NCBI GenBank assembly: GCA_002715505.1
Contig: PAZF01000017.1
Span: 1-64,000 of the forward strand
Origin: Candidatus Pelagibacterales bacterium
GTDB lineage: Bacteria; Pseudomonadota; Alphaproteobacteria; TMED109
Reading direction: 5' to 3'
Length of the DNA stretch: 64,000 nt
Position numbers and translations under genes: made by a program. Under the pieces are notes generated by a model that worked only from the letters and a program-made list of their open reading frames with translations, was not told the origin of the DNA and did not search any database. Positions 6,432 to 63,195 of this stretch are shown here, one piece after another (position 1 is the stretch's first letter; every line of letters begins with the position of its first letter).

Positions 6432-6779
6432 TTATTTTTTTTTACACTCTAATAACCATATATCGTTTATAGGATGTTCTAAACTATTTATGCTTGGGCT
6501 TGATGAAAACATCCAACCCTTAAAAATATTTTCATTTTTTTTTAAATCTTTAATTATAATATAGGCATAATTCTCAATTTCCATATTAATAGGATTTTGA
6601 TAGCAGTATTTTACATTAATAGATAATTTAGAAAAATTAACTGTCTTATTTATAGGGGTATTTAAAATAAAAGATCTTCCTGTTGTTCTGTCTATTGCTC
6701 TAAGTTTAGCTGTTAATTCTGCAAAAGCATTTTTAAATAAAAAACAAATAATTAAAGAAAAAAAAACTTTTTTAAACAT
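6432..6779 (-). CDS. DUF2155 domain secreted protein
   Basis: Signal peptide; AIDRTTGRS, FKGWMFSSSPSINSLEHPINDIWLLEC; typical neighbour of aat in alphaproteobacteria. Confidence 0.85.
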   Translation of the reverse strand: MFKKVFFSLIICFLFKNAFAELTAKLRAIDRTTGRSFILNTPINKTVNFSKLSINVKYCYQNPINMEIENYAYIIIKDLKKNENIFKGWMFSSSPSINSLEHPINDIWLLECKKK

Positions 6780-6999
6780 CTTTTATGGTATTTTTCATAT
6801 TTTTTACTATATCTTGTATAACTTTTTTAAATTGATTTTCATCAACTCCAATTAAAACCGCCTCGTCAAATATATCTTTAAGCATTTCGGTTAGCTCATC
6901 TAAATTACCATTAATTACCTTGATTTTTTCCTTACATGATATTGTATTTTTATTTTTATCAACCCAATATTTAGGGATTAATTTATTGTTATTTCTCAT
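6772..6999 (-). CDS. small conserved hypothetical protein (start likely the internal ATG at 6999)
   Basis: Compact ORF between DUF2155 and NDUFA12 genes; KYWVDKNKNTISCKEKIKVINGNLDELTEML. Confidence 0.7.
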   Translation of the reverse strand: MRNNNKLIPKYWVDKNKNTISCKEKIKVINGNLDELTEMLKDIFDEAVLIGVDENQFKKVIQDIVKNMKNTIKDV

Positions 7000-7000
7000 T

Positions 7001-7351
7001 TTAATTTGGTGTCCAATATTTATTTTTTTTTTGTACTGATTTTTTTGATTCACTTATTTTTCTTACTGGATGGTATGCTTGATTTGTTCCGGTTAGATTT
7101 TGTTTTCTATCTTTTTCCCAGATATACTTTTGATCCTTATCAAAGACGTTTACATCCTCACTGGTTAGCCATAATTGCCACTTGACTGGAATGGCAGTAG
7201 GATCTTTTATTTTATTATAGACTACCCATTTTTTTTTAATTTTTTTTTTAGAAATATAATAGCGATTTCCTAAGCTATCTATACCAACTTCTTTTCCAAA
7301 AAAAATGGTATATAAAATTGTACCTAAATTATTAACTAGTAATATATTCAT
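7001..7351 (-). CDS. NADH:ubiquinone oxidoreductase NDUFA12 family subunit
   Basis: GNRYYISKK, WVVYNK..DPTAIPVKWQLWL; NDUFA12/B17.2 family pattern. Confidence 0.88.
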   Translation of the reverse strand: MNILLVNNLGTILYTIFFGKEVGIDSLGNRYYISKKKIKKKWVVYNKIKDPTAIPVKWQLWLTSEDVNVFDKDQKYIWEKDRKQNLTGTNQAYHPVRKISESKKSVQKKNKYWTPN

Positions 7352-7356
7352 TTTGA

Positions 7357-8067
7357 CTATATTTTCTTAATAATCTCTTCTAGCTTTTTCATATCATAAG
7401 CACCTGGATAAAGTTTTTTATTAATAATAAAAGTTGGAGTCCCTCTTACATTCAATCCTTTAGCAAACTCAATATTATCTTCTATTATCTTGGCTGTTTT
7501 TTCAGAGTTCATATCTTTTTTAAATTTCTTCAAATCTAAATTTAAACTATCAGCTAAATCAATTAGATATTCATTACTTATTTTTTTTTTACTATCCAAC
7601 AAAGCTGTGTGATAACTGAAATAAGCATTTTGTCTATGAGCCGCGATTGCTGCTTTTGCTGCAGAATAAGAAGTCTCTGATAATATAGGGAAGTCTATAA
7701 AAACAACTTTTATATTTTTATATTTTTTTAAAAGCTTATTAATAATAATCAGTGTTTTTTTACAATAACTACAATTATAATCTATAAACTCTGTTATAAT
7801 AATGCTTCCAGAAATATTCCCTGTATGTGGAAAGTTTTCATATTTTTTATTTTTATAATAAGCTTCTATGTGAGACCTTTGTTTTTCCTCAAATTTAGCT
7901 TCCTGATTACTTCTATATTTTTCTAGAGATTCTATTAATATTTCAGGATTTTCAAGCAAGTATTTTTTTATTATTTTTTCTATTTCAGCTTGGGATGTAA
8001 TATTATCTATGGCTTGAACATTAATTACCATAAAATAAAAAATTAAAAATTTAATAAAAAATTTCAT
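7357..8067 (-). CDS. DsbA-family thioredoxin-fold protein (DsbG/Com1-like)
   Basis: Signal peptide; ITEFIDYNCSYCKKTL active site; RGTPTFIINKKLYPGA. Confidence 0.9.
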   Translation of the reverse strand: MKFFIKFLIFYFMVINVQAIDNITSQAEIEKIIKKYLLENPEILIESLEKYRSNQEAKFEEKQRSHIEAYYKNKKYENFPHTGNISGSIIITEFIDYNCSYCKKTLIIINKLLKKYKNIKVVFIDFPILSETSYSAAKAAIAAHRQNAYFSYHTALLDSKKKISNEYLIDLADSLNLDLKKFKKDMNSEKTAKIIEDNIEFAKGLNVRGTPTFIINKKLYPGAYDMKKLEEIIKKI

Positions 8068-8092
8068 ACCTTAATTAATATAATAGTTTAAT

Positions 8093-9445
8093 TCAATTTA
8101 CAATATTTAGAATATCATTTGCTCTTATGCTTTCAGGGCTATTAGTTTTGGTGTTTTTTACTACTCTCTCAGCAAAATACTTGCTTCTATTAAAGTCTCT
8201 CCTTATTAAAAACTCTTCGGCTGCAGATAAATCAGCCAGATTTTTCTCATTTAATTTATTGTGTGCAATACCCTTTAAATGCCAAGCTAGTATATTATTA
8301 GGTTCTAAAAATATAGTTTTTTCTAATAGATTTTTTGCATTTGTATAAGATGAAGAACTATTTCTTCTTTCTAAAAGCATATTTGCAAGCGCTATCATAA
8401 TTAATGGAGCAGGCTTTTCAATCACACTAAGAGATTTTTTATATGCATTTATGGCATTTTCTATCTTTCCATTTTCTGCATATATTTGCCCTTTTAACTC
8501 TAAAAAGTAGGGGTCACTGGGGTAATCCTTTAATAGTGAGTTTATAGATAAAATAGCTTCTTCATACATAGGAATTCTAAAATATGCTATAGCTCTAGCA
8601 TACCTCTGATGGATACTATTATCTTTATTGACAAGTAAAGTTTTTCCAGGAGGGTCTGTAAATGCATTTATCTTTGATTGTAACCTTTTATAAAGAATTT
8701 TATCTTTATTAGGCTCTACAATTTTGTCAGATAATTTATGTTTTCTTATAAACTTTAATCTTTCTCTAGATAGTGGATGGGTTCTAAGAAAAGGGTCTTG
8801 TCTACTTGATATCAGTAACTCTTGACCAGCAAGTTGTTCTAGTATAATGCCTAAGGCTCCAGGATCTCTATTAGCTTTCTTAAGATATTTTATACCTAAA
8901 GCATCAGCAGCAAACTCATTTGCTCTACTAAATGCAAAAAACCTTCTTCTTGATATATCAGGTCCAATAGCCAATATACCTTTTGCAATTTCCGCAGAGT
9001 CATTTCTGGAAATAGTCTGACTTTTTGCTCCTACTAGTAATACACCAATTCCTAAAAGACTGGTAAAAAATTGATTATTAGATAAATTTTTTATTTTTTC
9101 TTTAATTTTCAAAATATGACCCGCAGATATATGTCCAGCTTCATGAGCTATGACTCCAATTACTCCACTAGCACTCCCAGCTTTAGTTATAAGGCCAGTA
9201 TTAATAAACATATTATTGCCATCAATTACAAAAGCATTTATTTTCTGATCAGCAATAATATGTATTTTTATTTGCTTAGCATCCATATTAGCTGCTTTAA
9301 ATATGGGTTCAGCCCAACTATCTATAGCAAACTCTAACTCAGTATCCCTTATATAATTTGCGGAAAGAATATTCTTTTCTAAAAAGAAATAAGCAATAAA
9401 AGAAAAAAGCAATAAAAGCTTAAATTTTTTATAAAAATATATCAT
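8093..9445 (-). CDS. M48 family metalloprotease with TPR domain (BepA-like)
   Basis: GVIAHEAGHISAGH zinc site; RANEFAADALG; C-terminal TPRs; start placed at internal ATG 9445. Confidence 0.9.
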   Translation of the reverse strand: MIYFYKKFKLLLLFSFIAYFFLEKNILSANYIRDTELEFAIDSWAEPIFKAANMDAKQIKIHIIADQKINAFVIDGNNMFINTGLITKAGSASGVIGVIAHEAGHISAGHILKIKEKIKNLSNNQFFTSLLGIGVLLVGAKSQTISRNDSAEIAKGILAIGPDISRRRFFAFSRANEFAADALGIKYLKKANRDPGALGIILEQLAGQELLISSRQDPFLRTHPLSRERLKFIRKHKLSDKIVEPNKDKILYKRLQSKINAFTDPPGKTLLVNKDNSIHQRYARAIAYFRIPMYEEAILSINSLLKDYPSDPYFLELKGQIYAENGKIENAINAYKKSLSVIEKPAPLIMIALANMLLERRNSSSSYTNAKNLLEKTIFLEPNNILAWHLKGIAHNKLNEKNLADLSAAEEFLIRRDFNRSKYFAERVVKNTKTNSPESIRANDILNIVN

Positions 9446-9454
9446 ACTTACATT

Positions 9455-10613
9455 TTGGAGGATATCACAATTTCTGAAAACAAAGACAAAATAAAACCTT
9501 TTTATGCTATAAAAATTTTTGAAAAAGGTAAAGAAATAGATCCAACAGGTAAAAAAACTATTCATTTATCTTTAGGCGAACCTTCGGTCTCGTTACCAAA
9601 AAAGCTTTTAGATCACGTAGGAAAAAAGCTATTAAAAAAAAAAAATTGGTTACACAGAGTCTATAGGTCTATTAGAACTACGAAAAGAAATAGTTAAACA
9701 TTATTCTATAAGATACAATATTAACATTAATGTAAATCAAGTGGCTATAACTTCTGGAGCATCTGCTTCTATTTTGCTTTCACTAATGTCTCTATTTAAA
9801 AAAGGCGATACTATTGCAATAGTATCACCTGGTTATCCATGTTATTTAAATATATTAAAATCTTTAAACTACAAAGTTTTTAATATACAAACCACAATAG
9901 AAAAAGGATTTAATATAGATTTAAATCAGATAGCGAGTCTGCCATACAAGGTTAAGGGATTAATTCTAGCAAGCCCAGCGAATCCTACTGGTGCTACAAT
10001 AGAATCTTCTAAACTAAAAGAAATAAATAATATTTGCTTAAAAAAAAATATTACTCTTATTTCAGATGAAATTTATCAAGGTATTAATTATCATAAAAAC
10101 TCCAAAGAACAGAGCCTTCTATCTCTCAATTCCAATGGCGTAATAATAAATAGCTTTTCAAAATATTTTTTAATGACAGGATGGCGTTTAGGCTGGATTA
10201 TAAGTAACAGAAAGCATATAGAGAAAATTAGCAGGATAGCGATGAATATTTATCTAAGCCCTTCGTCTATATCACAGTATACTGCATTAGAAACTTTCAA
10301 ATATTATGATTATTTTGACAATGTGGTAAATGGTTACTCTCAAAAAAGAAATTACCTAAAAAATAGGTTAAAAGAAATAGGACTTAATAACTTTTTTATT
10401 CCTAATGGTGCTTTTTATTTTTATATTAATATTTCAAAATTTACTAAAAATTCTTACAAATTTTGCGAGGAAATGGTAAATGATCTAAATATTACCACAG
10501 CCCCTGGAATCGATTTTGATAGCAAAAACGGAAATGCGTATATCAGGATATCATTTGCTGGAAAAAAAAATGACTTAGTAACTGCTTTAAATAAAATAGA
10601 AAAATGGTTATGA
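9455..10613 (+). pseudogene. class I/II pyridoxal-phosphate aminotransferase split by a -1 frameshift in an A12 run (9634-9645)
   Basis: ORF 9455-9697 and ORF 9741-10613 join if one A is skipped: ...GKKLLKKKIGYTESIGLLELRKEIVKHYS...; PLP-site SFSKYFLMTGWRLGW intact. Confidence 0.88.
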
Positions 10614-57055: not shown

Positions 57056-58138
57056 ATGTTAATAGATAGAAAAAGTTACAGAACCATATGGCACGATAAA
57101 GTTTTAGAAAAAGTTCAAATAATTGATCAAACTAAACTACCATTTTCTTTAGAAATAATTTCTCTTGAATGCCTTGACGATGTTTTAGAGGCAATAAACA
57201 GTATGCAGGTAAGAGGAGCACCTTTAATTGGAGCAACAGCAGCTTTTGGTATTTATCTGGCTTATAGGGAGCTTAAGGATAAAACTAAAATAGCTGAAGC
57301 TGCAGCTAAAATTAAAAACACCAGGCCAACTGCAGTAAATCTTTTTTGGGCAGTTGATAAAATGATGGGAAAAATTAATCACAGCATAGATAAAAATATT
57401 ATGCAAAAAACTTTATTAGAAGAAGCTGAAAAAATTTGTGAATCTGATGTAGATGCATGTAAAAAAATAGGAATAAATGGTTTTGAATTAATTAAAAAAA
57501 TTCATGATAATAAAAAAAATACGGTAAATATTTTAACTCATTGCAATGCCGGTTGGTTGGCAACAATAGACTGGGGTACAGCTACTGCTCCTATTTATTT
57601 AGCAAAAAAAAATAATATTGATATTCATGTATGGGTTGACGAAACTAGACCAAGGAATCAAGGTGCTTCTCTTACAAGCTATGAATTAAATCACGAACAA
57701 GTCGATAATACTATAATTACTGACAATTCAGCAGGACTACTAATGCAAAGAAATCAGATTGATTTATGTATTGTCGGAGCTGATAGGGTTACTTATACTG
57801 GACATGTTGCAAACAAAATAGGGACTTTTTTAAAAGCAGTGATTGCAAAAGAATTTAGAATTCCTTTTTATGTAGCAATACCAATAAGTACCATAGATTG
57901 GAATACAAGGAACTATAATGATATTGCAATAGAGGAGAGAAGTGATAATGAACTAAGAAAAATTACTGGTTTAGATAATGAAAATAGAATTAAAACCTTA
58001 GATATTTACCCGAAAAATAGTAAGGTATACAATCCAGCTTTTGACATTACTCCTAAAGAATTCGTTCAGTCTTTGATAACAAATAAAGGCATTATAAAAC
58101 CTAATGAAGATGATATAGCAAAGCTGAAAGATGATTGA
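57056..58138 (+). CDS. mtnA: S-methyl-5-thioribose-1-phosphate isomerase
   Basis: MQVRGAPLIGATAAFG, ILTHCNAGWLATIDWGTA, VWVDETRPRNQGASLTSYEL, VGADRVTYTGHVANKIGT. Confidence 0.96.
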   Translation: MLIDRKSYRTIWHDKVLEKVQIIDQTKLPFSLEIISLECLDDVLEAINSMQVRGAPLIGATAAFGIYLAYRELKDKTKIAEAAAKIKNTRPTAVNLFWAVDKMMGKINHSIDKNIMQKTLLEEAEKICESDVDACKKIGINGFELIKKIHDNKKNTVNILTHCNAGWLATIDWGTATAPIYLAKKNNIDIHVWVDETRPRNQGASLTSYELNHEQVDNTIITDNSAGLLMQRNQIDLCIVGADRVTYTGHVANKIGTFLKAVIAKEFRIPFYVAIPISTIDWNTRNYNDIAIEERSDNELRKITGLDNENRIKTLDIYPKNSKVYNPAFDITPKEFVQSLITNKGIIKPNEDDIAKLKDD

Positions 58139-58772
58139 TTTAAAAAAAAAGAAAATTATAAAATATTCTAAATTATTAGTAAAAAATGGTTTATCTCCAC
58201 TTAGGTCTGGAAATATATCAATAAGACATAAAATTAAAAATATAGATGGATTTTTTATTTCACCTTCTGGAAAGAAAAATGACCAGATAAAAATAAATGA
58301 TATCGTTTTTGTTTCAATGTCAGGAAAAATATATGAAAATAAAAAACCTTCTTCTGAGTGGGGCTTTCATTTAGATCTTTATAAGCATACTAATTGTAAT
58401 GCTGTTGTTCATGCTCATTCAAAATTTGCTGTTATAAGCTCTTGCTTATATAAACAAATACCAGCATTTCATTATATGGTTGCTCTAACAAATTCTAAAT
58501 CAATTAAAGTAGCAAGATACGCTTTATTCGGCTCTAAAAGCCTTTCTAAAAATATTATAAAAGCTATTGGTACATCAAAAACTTGTTTAATTTCAAACCA
58601 TGGTCAAATTAGTATAGGGAATTCTATAGAAAACGCTTTTGAATTAGCTGAAGAAGTAGAGTTGCTTTGTGACTATTATTATCATTGCCGATTACAAAAA
58701 ATACCTAAAAATATTAGTAATAAGGAAATGGATAAAGTTCTGAATAAAATTCTTAATTACAAATCAGACTAG
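58131..58772 (+). CDS. class II aldolase/adducin family protein (possible methylthioribulose/deoxyribulose-phosphate aldolase)
   Basis: LSPLRSGNISIRH, FISPSGKKNDQI, VVHAHSKFAVISS, ISNHGQISIG; overlaps end of mtnA. Confidence 0.88.
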   Translation: MIDLKKKKIIKYSKLLVKNGLSPLRSGNISIRHKIKNIDGFFISPSGKKNDQIKINDIVFVSMSGKIYENKKPSSEWGFHLDLYKHTNCNAVVHAHSKFAVISSCLYKQIPAFHYMVALTNSKSIKVARYALFGSKSLSKNIIKAIGTSKTCLISNHGQISIGNSIENAFELAEEVELLCDYYYHCRLQKIPKNISNKEMDKVLNKILNYKSD

Positions 58773-58776
58773 TTTT

Positions 58777-58851
58777 TGGTGCTCCAAGGCAGAATTGAAC
58801 TGCCATTTCGCCCTTACCAAGGGCGTGTAATAACCATTATACGATTGGAGC
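58777..58851 (-). tRNA. tRNA-Thr(GGT), CCA encoded
   Basis: Reverse complement GCTCCAA...CGCCC-TTGGTAA-GGGCG...GGCAGTTCAATTCTGCC-TTGGAGC-A-CCA folds as cloverleaf; anticodon GGT. Confidence 0.95.
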
Positions 58852-59343: not shown

Positions 59344-59787
59344 TTATGTGAATTCAATAAGATTTACTGTTTTCTCTTTAACATCAATTAAAATAATTTT
59401 CTTTGAATTATAAACTTTTGTATATTCTAATAATTGTCTTCTAGTGGATATATTTTGTATCGAAGCAGACTTGCCAGTTTTAACCTCTGCTATATAAAAT
59501 TCATTATCCTTTTTAACTAGATAATCAGGCCTTATAAAATAGTATTGTGGTACATTATTATTTAACAAGCTACCTTTTAAAGTTATTTGTTGATCAATAA
59601 TTTGATATCCATGATTTTTTAACAAATTAATTGCTTTTTTTTCTCCTAATTTTCCTCTTAATTTAATATAAAAAAATAATAAAATTTTATATATTTTTCT
59701 TAGAAACCAACCAAATATTAAGATTATTGTTACTAAAACTATAAGCTTAATATTATTATTTTCTAACAAATTTAAGATATTATTCAT
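59344..59787 (-). CDS. membrane-anchored PD-(D/E)XK nuclease-like protein
   Basis: N-terminal TM helix; GEKKAINLLKNHGYQII ... IRPDYLVKKDNEFYIAEVKTG (PD...ExK pattern). Confidence 0.72.
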   Translation of the reverse strand: MNNILNLLENNNIKLIVLVTIILIFGWFLRKIYKILLFFYIKLRGKLGEKKAINLLKNHGYQIIDQQITLKGSLLNNNVPQYYFIRPDYLVKKDNEFYIAEVKTGKSASIQNISTRRQLLEYTKVYNSKKIILIDVKEKTVNLIEFT

Positions 59788-59847: not shown

Positions 59848-60678
59848 ATAAAAATATCAGTAGTAATTCCAACTTTTAACAGAGTGCAATTTATTGAAAA
59901 TACAATAAAATCAGTTCTGGAACAAAGTTATAAAGTAGATGAAATAATAGTAGTAGATAATAATTCTACGGACAATACATGTGAATTAGTAAAAAACAAA
60001 TTTCCTAACGTTAGGTTATTAAGAGAAAATCAACAGGGTGTAAGTTATGCTAGAAACACAGGGATTAATAATGCTAAGAATAATTGGATAGCTTTTTTAG
60101 ACTCAGACGACCAATGGTTAAGAAACAAAATAGAACTTCAAGTAAATAAGGTTAAAAGTCATAATTATAATTCTTTATTTGTGCACACAGATGAAATCTG
60201 GATAAAAAATGGAAAAAAAATTAATCAAAAAAAAAAACATATGAAGCTAGAAGGGTATATTTATAAAGAGTGTTTAAATATGTGTATTATATCTCCATCA
60301 AGTGTTTTAGTTAATAGACATTTATTCAATGAATACGGTATGTTTAGACCTTGGTTAAAAGTTTGTGAAGATTACGAACTTTGGTTAAGATTTACAAGCA
60401 AAGTTCCTATTTACTTAGTAAATGTGCCATGTGTAGTAAAGTATGGAGGACATCCTGGGCAACTTTCGAAAAAGCACTGGGGTATAGATAGATTTAGAGT
60501 AAGAGCTCTAGAAAAACTAATTCTAAGATTTAACTTAAATAAAATACAAACAAAAGATACAACAAATGCCTTAATTTCAAAAATTAAAGTTATAATATCG
60601 GGTGCAGAAAAAAGAAAAAACAAAAAAATTATGAAAATATATAATTTTAAAAAAAATTATTGGAAAGATAAAATTTAA
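59848..60678 (+). CDS. family 2 glycosyltransferase; apparent non-AUG (ATA) start
   Basis: IKISVVIPTFNRVQFIENTIKSVLEQSYKVDEIIVVDNNSTDNT; AFLDSDDQWL; only ATA/ATT in frame before the b1 strand. Confidence 0.85.
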   Translation: MKISVVIPTFNRVQFIENTIKSVLEQSYKVDEIIVVDNNSTDNTCELVKNKFPNVRLLRENQQGVSYARNTGINNAKNNWIAFLDSDDQWLRNKIELQVNKVKSHNYNSLFVHTDEIWIKNGKKINQKKKHMKLEGYIYKECLNMCIISPSSVLVNRHLFNEYGMFRPWLKVCEDYELWLRFTSKVPIYLVNVPCVVKYGGHPGQLSKKHWGIDRFRVRALEKLILRFNLNKIQTKDTTNALISKIKVIISGAEKRKNKKIMKIYNFKKNYWKDKI

Positions 60679-60684
60679 ACCTAC

Positions 60685-61515
60685 ATGAATAAAAAAAATT
60701 TAAGATTTATTATAGCTTTAAGTGTAGAAGCAAAAAGTATTATAGAGTTATATAAATTAAAAGAAATAAATTTACCTCCAAATATATTTAAAATTTATAA
60801 AAATATAGACTTAAATATTTGGCTAATTATATCAGGAATAGGAAATGTTAATTCAGCAGCTGCCACAATTTATTTATATAAAAGCAGCCCTAAGAATAAA
60901 AAAAATATTTGGATTAATGTAGGAATGGCAGGAAGTAAAAATTTTGATGTTGGATCTATTTTTAATATTAAGAAAGTGAGTTACAAGAATACATTAAAAG
61001 AAGAAAGCTTTTACTTAAGTACTTTAGTTAATACAAAAATACCAATAAATGAAATTGTGAGTGTAGATACTCCAGAATATAATTTTAAAAAGAAAAAATC
61101 TATATATGAAATGGAGGGTTATGGTTTTATAAAAACAGTAGAGAGGTTTTGTAGCAGGGAGCTAATTATTATTATTAAAATAATTTCTGACAATGAAAAA
61201 ATACCACCCATTAACTTTATTAAAACTACTAAACATTTTATGAAATCTAATATCAAGGCTTTAGAGGAATTAATAAATGATTATATAAAAATATCATCAA
61301 GCATAAAAAATAAAAGAAAGTATAATATTAACATCATAAATAAAAAATTTCATATAACTTATTCTAGTAAAGTTATTATAGAGGATCTAGCTTTTAAGTT
61401 TGAAAAAATTTATTCTAGAAAAGAACTTGAAATAATTTTATCGGAAGCTAAAACTTTAAAGGATTTTATTAGAGAGGTTAAAAAAAAAATTAACTCTTAT
61501 GTACTAAAAATATAA
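60685..61515 (+). CDS. nucleoside phosphorylase/nucleosidase superfamily-like protein
   Basis: FIIALSVEAKSI, IISGIGNVNSAAATIYL, NVGMAG, YEMEGYGFIKTVE (DMEG-like motif). Confidence 0.75.
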   Translation: MNKKNLRFIIALSVEAKSIIELYKLKEINLPPNIFKIYKNIDLNIWLIISGIGNVNSAAATIYLYKSSPKNKKNIWINVGMAGSKNFDVGSIFNIKKVSYKNTLKEESFYLSTLVNTKIPINEIVSVDTPEYNFKKKKSIYEMEGYGFIKTVERFCSRELIIIIKIISDNEKIPPINFIKTTKHFMKSNIKALEELINDYIKISSSIKNKRKYNINIINKKFHITYSSKVIIEDLAFKFEKIYSRKELEIILSEAKTLKDFIREVKKKINSYVLKI

Positions 61516-62504
61516 TGAAAAAAGTAATTTATATAGAAAAAAGCATTAAAAACTTAGCTAGAGTAAAAGCAATAATTAGAAGGTTTAGAGATCCTTCAAT
61601 AATTTATATTAATAGATACACAGAAGTCTTTAATAAAAAAAATCAAAACTTTCCTCTGCAGAAAAAAAATCCAGCAGTAATTTTAGCAAAAAAACAGGGA
61701 AATTTTTTGTTAAAAACACCCGAAAGCTATACAATAGGAAGAAAAAATAACTATTATTTTTCTTACATGTATAATTGTATTTTTGATTGTAGATATTGTT
61801 TTTTACAAGGTTTATATAATTCTTCAAATTTTGTTATTTTTATCAATTATGAAGATTATTTTAATGAAATAGGTTTGCTAGACTCAAGTCACATTGCTAA
61901 TGATACTACTATTTTTTCTGGTTATGATTGTGACTCGTTAGCATATGACAGTATTAGTAATTTTTCTGAGTCAGTTCTAAAAAGTTTTAATAAATTTAAA
62001 AAAATTGAGCTAGAAATTAGAACTAAAAGCACTTATGTTAAGCCATTCATGAGAAAAAGCATGCAGAATATTATTTTGGCGTTTAGTTTTACGCCAGAAA
62101 GATTTTCATCAAAATATGAGTTAGGTGTAGCTAGTAATAAAAAGAGGGTCAAGGTACTACAAAATTTAATAAATAAAGGATGGAAGGTAGGAATTAGATT
62201 TGATCCATTTGTAATTTATGAAGGTTGGGAGAAAGATTACTTAAATTTATTTGAATTAATATTTAGCAAAATACCAACTGAACAAATGCATTCTGTAACC
62301 TATGGAAATATAAGATTTCCCAAAAATATTTTTTCCAAAATTAAAAAGTACTATGCAGAAGAAAAGCTTTTTTTTAAATTTTCTAAGTATAAAAGTAATA
62401 TTTATGATGAAGATAACGGAGAATTAATAAATAATTTTTGCTCACGTTACTTAATTAATTATGTAGATAAAAATAAAATATATTGCAATATTCATGAAAG
62501 ATAG
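61515..62504 (+). CDS. SPL (spore photoproduct lyase)-family radical SAM protein
   Basis: NCIFDCRYCFLQGLY (CX3CX2C), LEIRTKSTYV, AFSFTPERFSSKYELGVASNKKRVKVLQNLINKGWKVGIRFDPF. Confidence 0.85.
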   Translation: MKKVIYIEKSIKNLARVKAIIRRFRDPSIIYINRYTEVFNKKNQNFPLQKKNPAVILAKKQGNFLLKTPESYTIGRKNNYYFSYMYNCIFDCRYCFLQGLYNSSNFVIFINYEDYFNEIGLLDSSHIANDTTIFSGYDCDSLAYDSISNFSESVLKSFNKFKKIELEIRTKSTYVKPFMRKSMQNIILAFSFTPERFSSKYELGVASNKKRVKVLQNLINKGWKVGIRFDPFVIYEGWEKDYLNLFELIFSKIPTEQMHSVTYGNIRFPKNIFSKIKKYYAEEKLFFKFSKYKSNIYDEDNGELINNFCSRYLINYVDKNKIYCNIHER

Positions 62505-63195
62505 AATGAAAAAATATTTAATTACTGGAACCTCCAAAGGAATAGGAAAATCCATTGCGTTAAAACTAATTAAAAATAAATGTCTAGTTTTAGGAATTTC
62601 TAGAAAACATAGTATAAAGGCTAAAAACTATATTCCATTCTCTCAAGATATATCGGATTTAGAAGGTTTTACTAAAACTTTAGAATATATCAAAAATAAA
62701 CACCCGGATATTCAAGGTGTTATAAGTAATGCAGGTGAAGGTGTTTTTAATAAATTAGAAAATTTTTCTGATATTCAAATCAGTAATTATTTTAACTTAA
62801 ATCTTTTATCACATATTTTGTTAGCAAAAAAAATGATATCAAATTTAAAAAAATCTAGAAAAGGTATATTTATTTTTATAGGATCTGAAGCGACTAAAAT
62901 AGGAGGTATTCAGGGAACACTTTACTGTTCTGCTAAACATGGTCTGCTAGGGTTTTTTAAATCGTTTAAAGCGGAGGCGAACAAAGCCTCTGTTAGAGCA
63001 ACAATCATCAATCCTGGCATGGTTAGAACAAGCTTTTTTAAAAACCTTAAATTTTCACCTGGGAGTGATAGGGAAAATGCCATTGAGGCAGAAGATATAG
63101 CTGAATTAGTGTATTTTTTGTGTAATTCTAGTAAATATATAAATTATTCTGATATCAATATTGACCCTTTGAAAAAAGTAATAATTAAAAAATGA
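62494..63195 (+). CDS. SDR family oxidoreductase
   Basis: YLITGTSKGIGKSIA, ISNAGEG, YCSAKHGLLGF; likely start ATG 62506. Confidence 0.92.
   Translation: MKDRMKKYLITGTSKGIGKSIALKLIKNKCLVLGISRKHSIKAKNYIPFSQDISDLEGFTKTLEYIKNKHPDIQGVISNAGEGVFNKLENFSDIQISNYFNLNLLSHILLAKKMISNLKKSRKGIFIFIGSEATKIGGIQGTLYCSAKHGLLGFFKSFKAEANKASVRATIINPGMVRTSFFKNLKFSPGSDRENAIEAEDIAELVYFLCNSSKYINYSDINIDPLKKVIIKK

Follow-up and report, generated by a model that had tools for sequence, protein, structure and literature searches.

The window, i.e. the whole stretch of 64,000 nucleotides that was analysed, carries at positions 59848–63195 of the plus strand four packed genes for a family 2 glycosyltransferase (GT2), an MTAN-type nucleosidase, a radical SAM enzyme resembling spore photoproduct lyase (SPL) and an SDR oxidoreductase. 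The question raised by this locus is whether the four genes belong together and what kind of chemistry they could serve. The GT2 gene (59848–60678, +) ends 6 bp before the ATG of the nucleosidase gene (60685–61515, +), and the stop codon of the latter overlaps the start of the SPL-like gene (61515–62504, +) by one nucleotide (TAATG) at 61515. For the SDR gene (62494–63195, +), the ATG at 62494 gives an 11-nt overlap with the end of the SPL-like gene and the alternative start at ATG 62506 a gap of 1 bp. The four same-strand genes, their spacing and their family assignments, as given in an earlier note on this DNA, were all borne out by the open reading frames and by profile and fold searches. 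Promoter and terminator scans produced nothing informative.

The GT2 (PF00535, E 6e-35) has kept its catalytic motifs, and against TIGR04283 it scored 70.7 bits (1.3e-19), under the cut-off of 182. No ATG, GTG or TTG is present ahead of its first conserved strand. The likely start is ATA at 59848, which follows TAGG at a distance of a few bases; the GTG at 59884 is less fitting because the conserved strand V-V-I-P-T-F-N-R would be lost. Also the GT2 ortholog of locus L012 lacks ATG, GTG and TTG before the conserved first strand. Among 11 genomes tested the ortholog was confined to those bearing the cassette, and no non-cassette GT2 in the 11 reached E 1e-30. The SDR (PF00106, E 8e-33) shows the features of the classical SDRs (TGxxxGIG and the S-Y-K catalytic residues), with TG-x-S-x-GIG and S131, Y144 and K148 kept also in the Fusobacterium and gut homologues. 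With the cassette profile the window SDR scored 336 bits, any other SDR of the 11 genomes at most about 126 bits.

The nucleosidase, called PNP-like in the earlier note, gave no Pfam match at E 0.1, being too diverged for PF01048, and in NCBIfam only weak nucleosidase matches (1e-5); for PRK05634 it scored 25.4 bits against a cut-off of 129 and so did not reach the family score. Profile and fold searches nevertheless group it with MTAN, and the best PDB folds for its AF2 model (pLDDT 87) are MTAN and futalosine hydrolase. In an alignment of 19 rows, E15, M143-E144, K165 and S168-D169 are invariant, which we take to correspond to E12, M173-E174, R193 (Lys here) and S196-D197 of E. coli MTAN. 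Equivalents of the catalytic Glu12, Met173-Glu174 and Ser196-Asp197 are present also in a Fusobacterium fusion protein described below, and they lapse in one gut locus (L076) alone. Most homologues have a C-terminal extension of about 80 residues, which is missing from family f24. From these residues and the modelled fold, the protein is predicted to cleave adenine nucleosides.

The SPL-like protein matched PF20903 (5.5e-15) and TIGR04070 (4.3e-19), the latter with 68.7 bits, far under the equivalog cut-off of 400. The cysteines of its CX3CX2C motif, C88, C92 and C95, are invariant in the clade. The structure prediction and comparison with SPL proposed in the earlier note were carried out: the top six Foldseek matches of the AF2 model (pLDDT 87.5) were all SPL (TM 0.80, best E 2e-16), but the hydrogen-donor cysteine of SPL, Cys140(Gt)/Cys141(Bs), aligns to Tyr137, which is invariant across the clade. 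Phe96 takes the place of the relay tyrosine Tyr98(Gt)/Tyr99(Bs) in the window protein and its alphaproteobacterial homologues; those from Fusobacterium and the gut have Tyr there. Of the other SPL(Gt) residues, Ser142 aligns to Cys139, Asp143 to Asp140, Lys174 to Lys171 and Tyr96 to Tyr94; around the key loop HMMER and MAFFT agree in an alignment free of gaps, with the caveat of a low identity, about 16%. In SPL the cysteine is the hydrogen donor and a tyrosine relay regenerates SAM (PMC3742179, PMC5368176), and clostridial SPL has its cysteine at a different position, C74 (PMC5368176). No invariant counterpart of the latter was found in the clade of the window, in which the three cluster cysteines are the only invariant ones. 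The enzyme has thus retained the cluster and SAM-side residues without the Cys hydrogen donor of SPL and, lacking the Cys/Tyr relay, should use SAM as a substrate. Repair of DNA photoproducts is, judged from the sequence, unlikely because Tyr137 replaces the hydrogen-donor cysteine.

Alphaproteobacterial loci were collected by searching with the SPL protein, many of the genomes being fragmentary. The order GT2–nucleosidase–SPL–SDR is repeated in many of these loci at about 30–70% protein identity, and in nearly all of them the nucleosidase gene adjoins the SPL gene. The four-gene order with overlapping or nearly touching reading frames was found in the window's own family, in SAR116, and in single-cell and Paracoccaceae/Rhodobacteraceae-labelled genomes. 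The flanks vary: fliG follows the cassette only in the own family, in loci with enough contig, while a Liv-type ABC transporter is found in L017–L022 and an FMO-like gene in L024. When nine loci are compared pair by pair, the identities of the four proteins rise and fall together (Mantel r 0.84–0.93, p ≤ 0.0004), with a contribution from shared vertical descent that is not removed. The SPL gene is rare (11 of 385 genomes of the class at 1e-10, some of the matches remote), and orthologs of the GT2 and the SDR were absent from all four SPL-less own-family genomes tested. The four genes are one co-inherited unit. The earlier note had considered its proposal refutable by a lack of co-conservation in other genomes; the neighbourhood analysis found the genes co-conserved in order.

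The unit also has reduced and altered forms. The SDR is missing from the f24 genomes, and the f9 genomes have a methyltransferase-like gene, the nucleosidase and the SPL gene without an ortholog of either the GT2 or the SDR. In the f9 loci L051 (2955–4274, +), L053 and L054, a 173-aa gene and the methyltransferase-like gene precede the nucleosidase–SPL pair, replacing the GT2. In locus L050 of genome G278 (6512–9563, −), a carbamoyltransferase and a TPR protein are situated between the nucleosidase and the SPL gene, which suggests a variant with a carbamoylated product.

The core of the cassette is the pair of nucleosidase and SPL-like enzyme. Four genomes of the phylum Omnitrophota have SPL proteins of the same clade (422–441 bits); in three of them the nucleosidase gene is directly upstream of the SPL gene and in the fourth the pair is split across contig ends. 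These loci include neither GT2 nor SDR. In Fusobacterium vincentii (NZ_CP084075.1, L075) the nucleosidase and the SPL-like enzyme form one reading frame of 624 aa, followed by a cassette-type SDR; the 2.1-Mb 'plasmid' of this record is probably a chromosome. One gut contig (MT835770.1, L077) has nucleosidase, SPL and SDR in order, and another (MT835514.1, L076) an SDR, a shortened nucleosidase-like reading frame and SPL; both are faecal contigs labelled 'Bacteriophage sp.' that look bacterial. The truncated frame in L076 (9493–9984, +) keeps the C-terminal extension and lacks the catalytic Glu; the extension may have a role by itself. In the SPL tree (18 clade rows) the alphaproteobacterial, Omnitrophota-phylum, Fusobacterium and gut sequences form one clade with support 100/98. 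A viral origin was rejected, as IMG/VR, scanned with two alignments, yielded remote SPL-type matches only and no cassette, the neighbours of these matches being examined at two loci. Also in plasmid and phage collections the only close matches were the Fusobacterium record and the two phage-labelled faecal contigs, the rest being remote members of the SPL family.

A wider survey covered 72 loci, mostly SPL-like genes in Omnitrophota-phylum genomes. The gene directly upstream of the SPL-like gene encoded a GT2 in 22 loci, a nucleosidase or phosphorylase in 17 and an aldo/keto reductase (AKR) in six; the remaining upstream genes were unidentified or the contig ended. The 22 upstream GT2s belong to the cassette subfamily (231–336 bits). 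In the SPL tree the GT2-linked genes are placed in two separate Omnitrophota groups and in the marine cassettes, and the nucleosidase-linked genes in the cassette clade, a Dependentiae pair and Omnitrophota groups. The partner in the two Dependentiae loci (L026 and L133) is a true MTAP. Upstream genes and tree together indicate a recurrent association of SPL-like enzymes with the cleavage of adenine nucleosides, with reduction and with glycosylation. In L131, L136 and similar Omnitrophota loci a ferredoxin-domain protein, possibly the electron donor, is encoded right before the nucleosidase–SPL pair; HpnH was considered for this upstream gene of about 360 aa and rejected in favour of the ferredoxin-domain assignment. 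L136 has two more radical SAM genes upstream. The SPL-like genes of Desulfobacterales (L027–L033) occur in a different conserved set with SAICAR synthetase, a ParB_N protein and SNase and were therefore left aside.

The host itself has a separate MTAP on contig C19, and at 57056–58772 (+) of the window the MtnA gene shares eight bases with that of a FucA-like class II aldolase, a conserved pair that also precedes the cassette in L012, L014 and L015. Together the three look like a DHAP-shunt route for MTA and 5'-dAdo. Because the host has these three enzymes, ordinary MTA/5'-dAdo salvage looks covered outside the cassette, and a housekeeping role for the cassette nucleosidase is disfavoured by the separate MTAP. 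Between the aldolase region and the cassette there is a small NERD-like/UPF0102-like reading frame (59344–59787, −), kept in L012 and L014, and Rfam places a tRNA gene at 58780–58851 (−). Squalene-hopene cyclase (TIGR01507) was found neither in the host genome (G000, 97.6% complete) nor in 15 of the 18 cassette or SPL-like genomes tested; with no hopene cyclase, a hopanoid substrate in the host is excluded. That a streamlined genome of 1.7 Mb retains the cassette suggests a useful product.

The reading we favour, held with somewhat less than even confidence and argued from the gene set as a whole, is that of a biosynthetic cassette in which the SPL-like enzyme adenosylates an acceptor, the nucleosidase depurinates the adduct, and the SDR and GT2 finish the product. 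The SPL-like enzyme would spend one SAM per turnover and join the 5'-deoxyadenosyl radical to an unsaturated acceptor, after which the nucleosidase would hydrolyse adenine off the adduct to leave a 5-deoxyribosyl hemiacetal. This could be reduced or oxidised by the SDR, perhaps by the AKR in some Omnitrophota, and the product would be glycosylated by the GT2. Such chemistry would match that of HpnH–HpnG–(reductase)–HpnI in the hopanoids, with another radical SAM family. The conserved order and linkage, the Fusobacterium fusion with its SDR, the single SPL clade, the upstream partners in the 72 loci and the invariant MTAN residues speak for adenosylation. Counted against it are the absence of GT2 and SDR in f9 and in the cassette-clade loci of Omnitrophota and of the SDR in f24, the nucleosidase-like frame of L076 without catalytic Glu, and the MTAP partner in Dependentiae, which favours simple removal of 5'-dAdo there.

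A role of the nucleosidase in clearing 5'-dAdo is only slightly less likely. The SPL-like enzyme would then abstract hydrogen from a sugar, lipid or nucleoside and release 5'-dAdo, the nucleosidase would destroy this inhibitor or make 5-deoxyribose of it, and SDR and GT2 would tailor the product, an account that we regard as a serious possibility, short of probable. 5'-dAdo inhibits radical SAM enzymes and needs removal (PMC8102628), and without the SAM-regenerating Cys–Tyr relay (PMC3742179) SAM would be consumed at each turnover and much 5'-dAdo formed; the pairing of the SPL-like gene with a genuine MTAP, an enzyme for MTA and 5'-dAdo, in Dependentiae agrees with this. However, MTAP, MtnA and class II aldolase are present in the host anyway, and the recurring reductase and GT2 are not explained by clearance alone. 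To our knowledge, radical SAM enzymes do not usually come with a dedicated, fused nucleosidase, either. Adenosylation is favoured because of this host background and because a reductase and a GT2 fit an exposed ribose. Improbable, by comparison, is a nucleosidase acting first and passing the sugar or base of a modified nucleoside to the other three enzymes, in nucleoside catabolism or for a nucleoside-derived product: the nucleosidase gene precedes the SPL gene and SPL itself works on nucleobases (PMC3742179), but reaction order can hardly be read from gene order, and the linked genes that were scanned showed no transporter, kinase or deaminase for nucleosides.

Two further suggestions of the earlier note fared worse. 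Surface-glycan synthesis beside fliG found no support as such and, like a flagellar gene set, is quite improbable: a GT2 and an SDR are what one would expect of a glycan cluster, and fliG is next to the cassette in own-family loci with enough contig, but elsewhere the neighbours are others (Liv ABC transporter, FMO-like gene and more), and the nucleosidase–SPL pair is without the GT2 in f9, Omnitrophota and Fusobacterium. Modified-base handling, in the form of a non-spore SPL repairing DNA photoproducts, is disfavoured to the point of being very improbable. It would agree with the SPL fold (TM 0.80) and with several relatives that appear marine from their record titles, whereas the essential hydrogen-donor Cys has become Tyr137, the relay Tyr98(Gt) Phe96, no other invariant Cys is present, the linked partners are sugar and nucleoside enzymes, and Fusobacterium and human-faecal records contain homologues. 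The note's main proposal, a pathway of its own, and no recognised system, for a product derived from a nucleoside or a sugar, gains support from the co-conservation and the nucleosidase–SPL fusion of Fusobacterium.

The cassette thus points to an undescribed pathway for a sugar-derived molecule, not to DNA repair. Carried further, the favoured adenosylation would make it a new, independently evolved radical SAM adenosylation–depurination pathway on the SPL fold, with the nucleosidase fused on in one lineage, distributed across marine Alphaproteobacteria, Omnitrophota, Fusobacterium and gut bacteria and yielding a 5-deoxyribose-derived (glyco)conjugate not described before; this fuller claim is put forward tentatively, as possible but less likely than not. 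SPL is the reference chemistry for its family, and here a whole branch without the hydrogen-donor Cys is linked with a nucleosidase, with reductases and with a single GT2 subfamily. Since the Fusobacterium fusion is a single protein of a cultivable species, its product is assayable and the function of non-spore SPL-like proteins testable. No paper joining SPL with a nucleosidase or glycosyltransferase was found among titles and abstracts of mainly open-access literature.

Of the known systems, spore photoproduct lyase (SplB; PDB 4FHC, 4RH0) has the fold, the CX3CX2C motif and the residues Tyr96(Gt) and Lys174(Gt) in common with the cassette enzyme, which differs in having Tyr137 for the hydrogen-donor Cys, Phe96 for Tyr98(Gt), other partner genes and a sub-cut-off score. 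MTAN and futalosine hydrolase share the fold and the counterparts of E12, ME174 and SD197 with the cassette nucleosidase, but the latter has Lys for Arg193, the C-terminal extension and the fusion or linkage to an SPL-like enzyme, and lies beyond the reach of PF01048. Radical SAM adenosylation followed by depurination occurs in the aminofutalosine pathway (MqnE/MqnB) and in that of arsenosugars (ArsS and a nucleosidase), the latter also with a TIGR04283 GT2; these radical SAM enzymes are of different families, and no ArsM-like or menaquinone gene was seen beside the cassette. In the hopanoid pathway HpnH adds the 5'-deoxyadenosyl radical, HpnG, a putative phosphorylase, removes adenine and HpnI glycosylates (PMC12583986), so that a radical SAM enzyme, an adenine-removing enzyme and a glycosyltransferase are likewise combined, whereas the radical SAM enzyme of the cassette belongs to the SPL family and its host is without hopene cyclase. 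With these adenosylation–depurination systems the cassette shares the linkage of a radical SAM gene to a gene of an adenine nucleosidase or phosphorylase.
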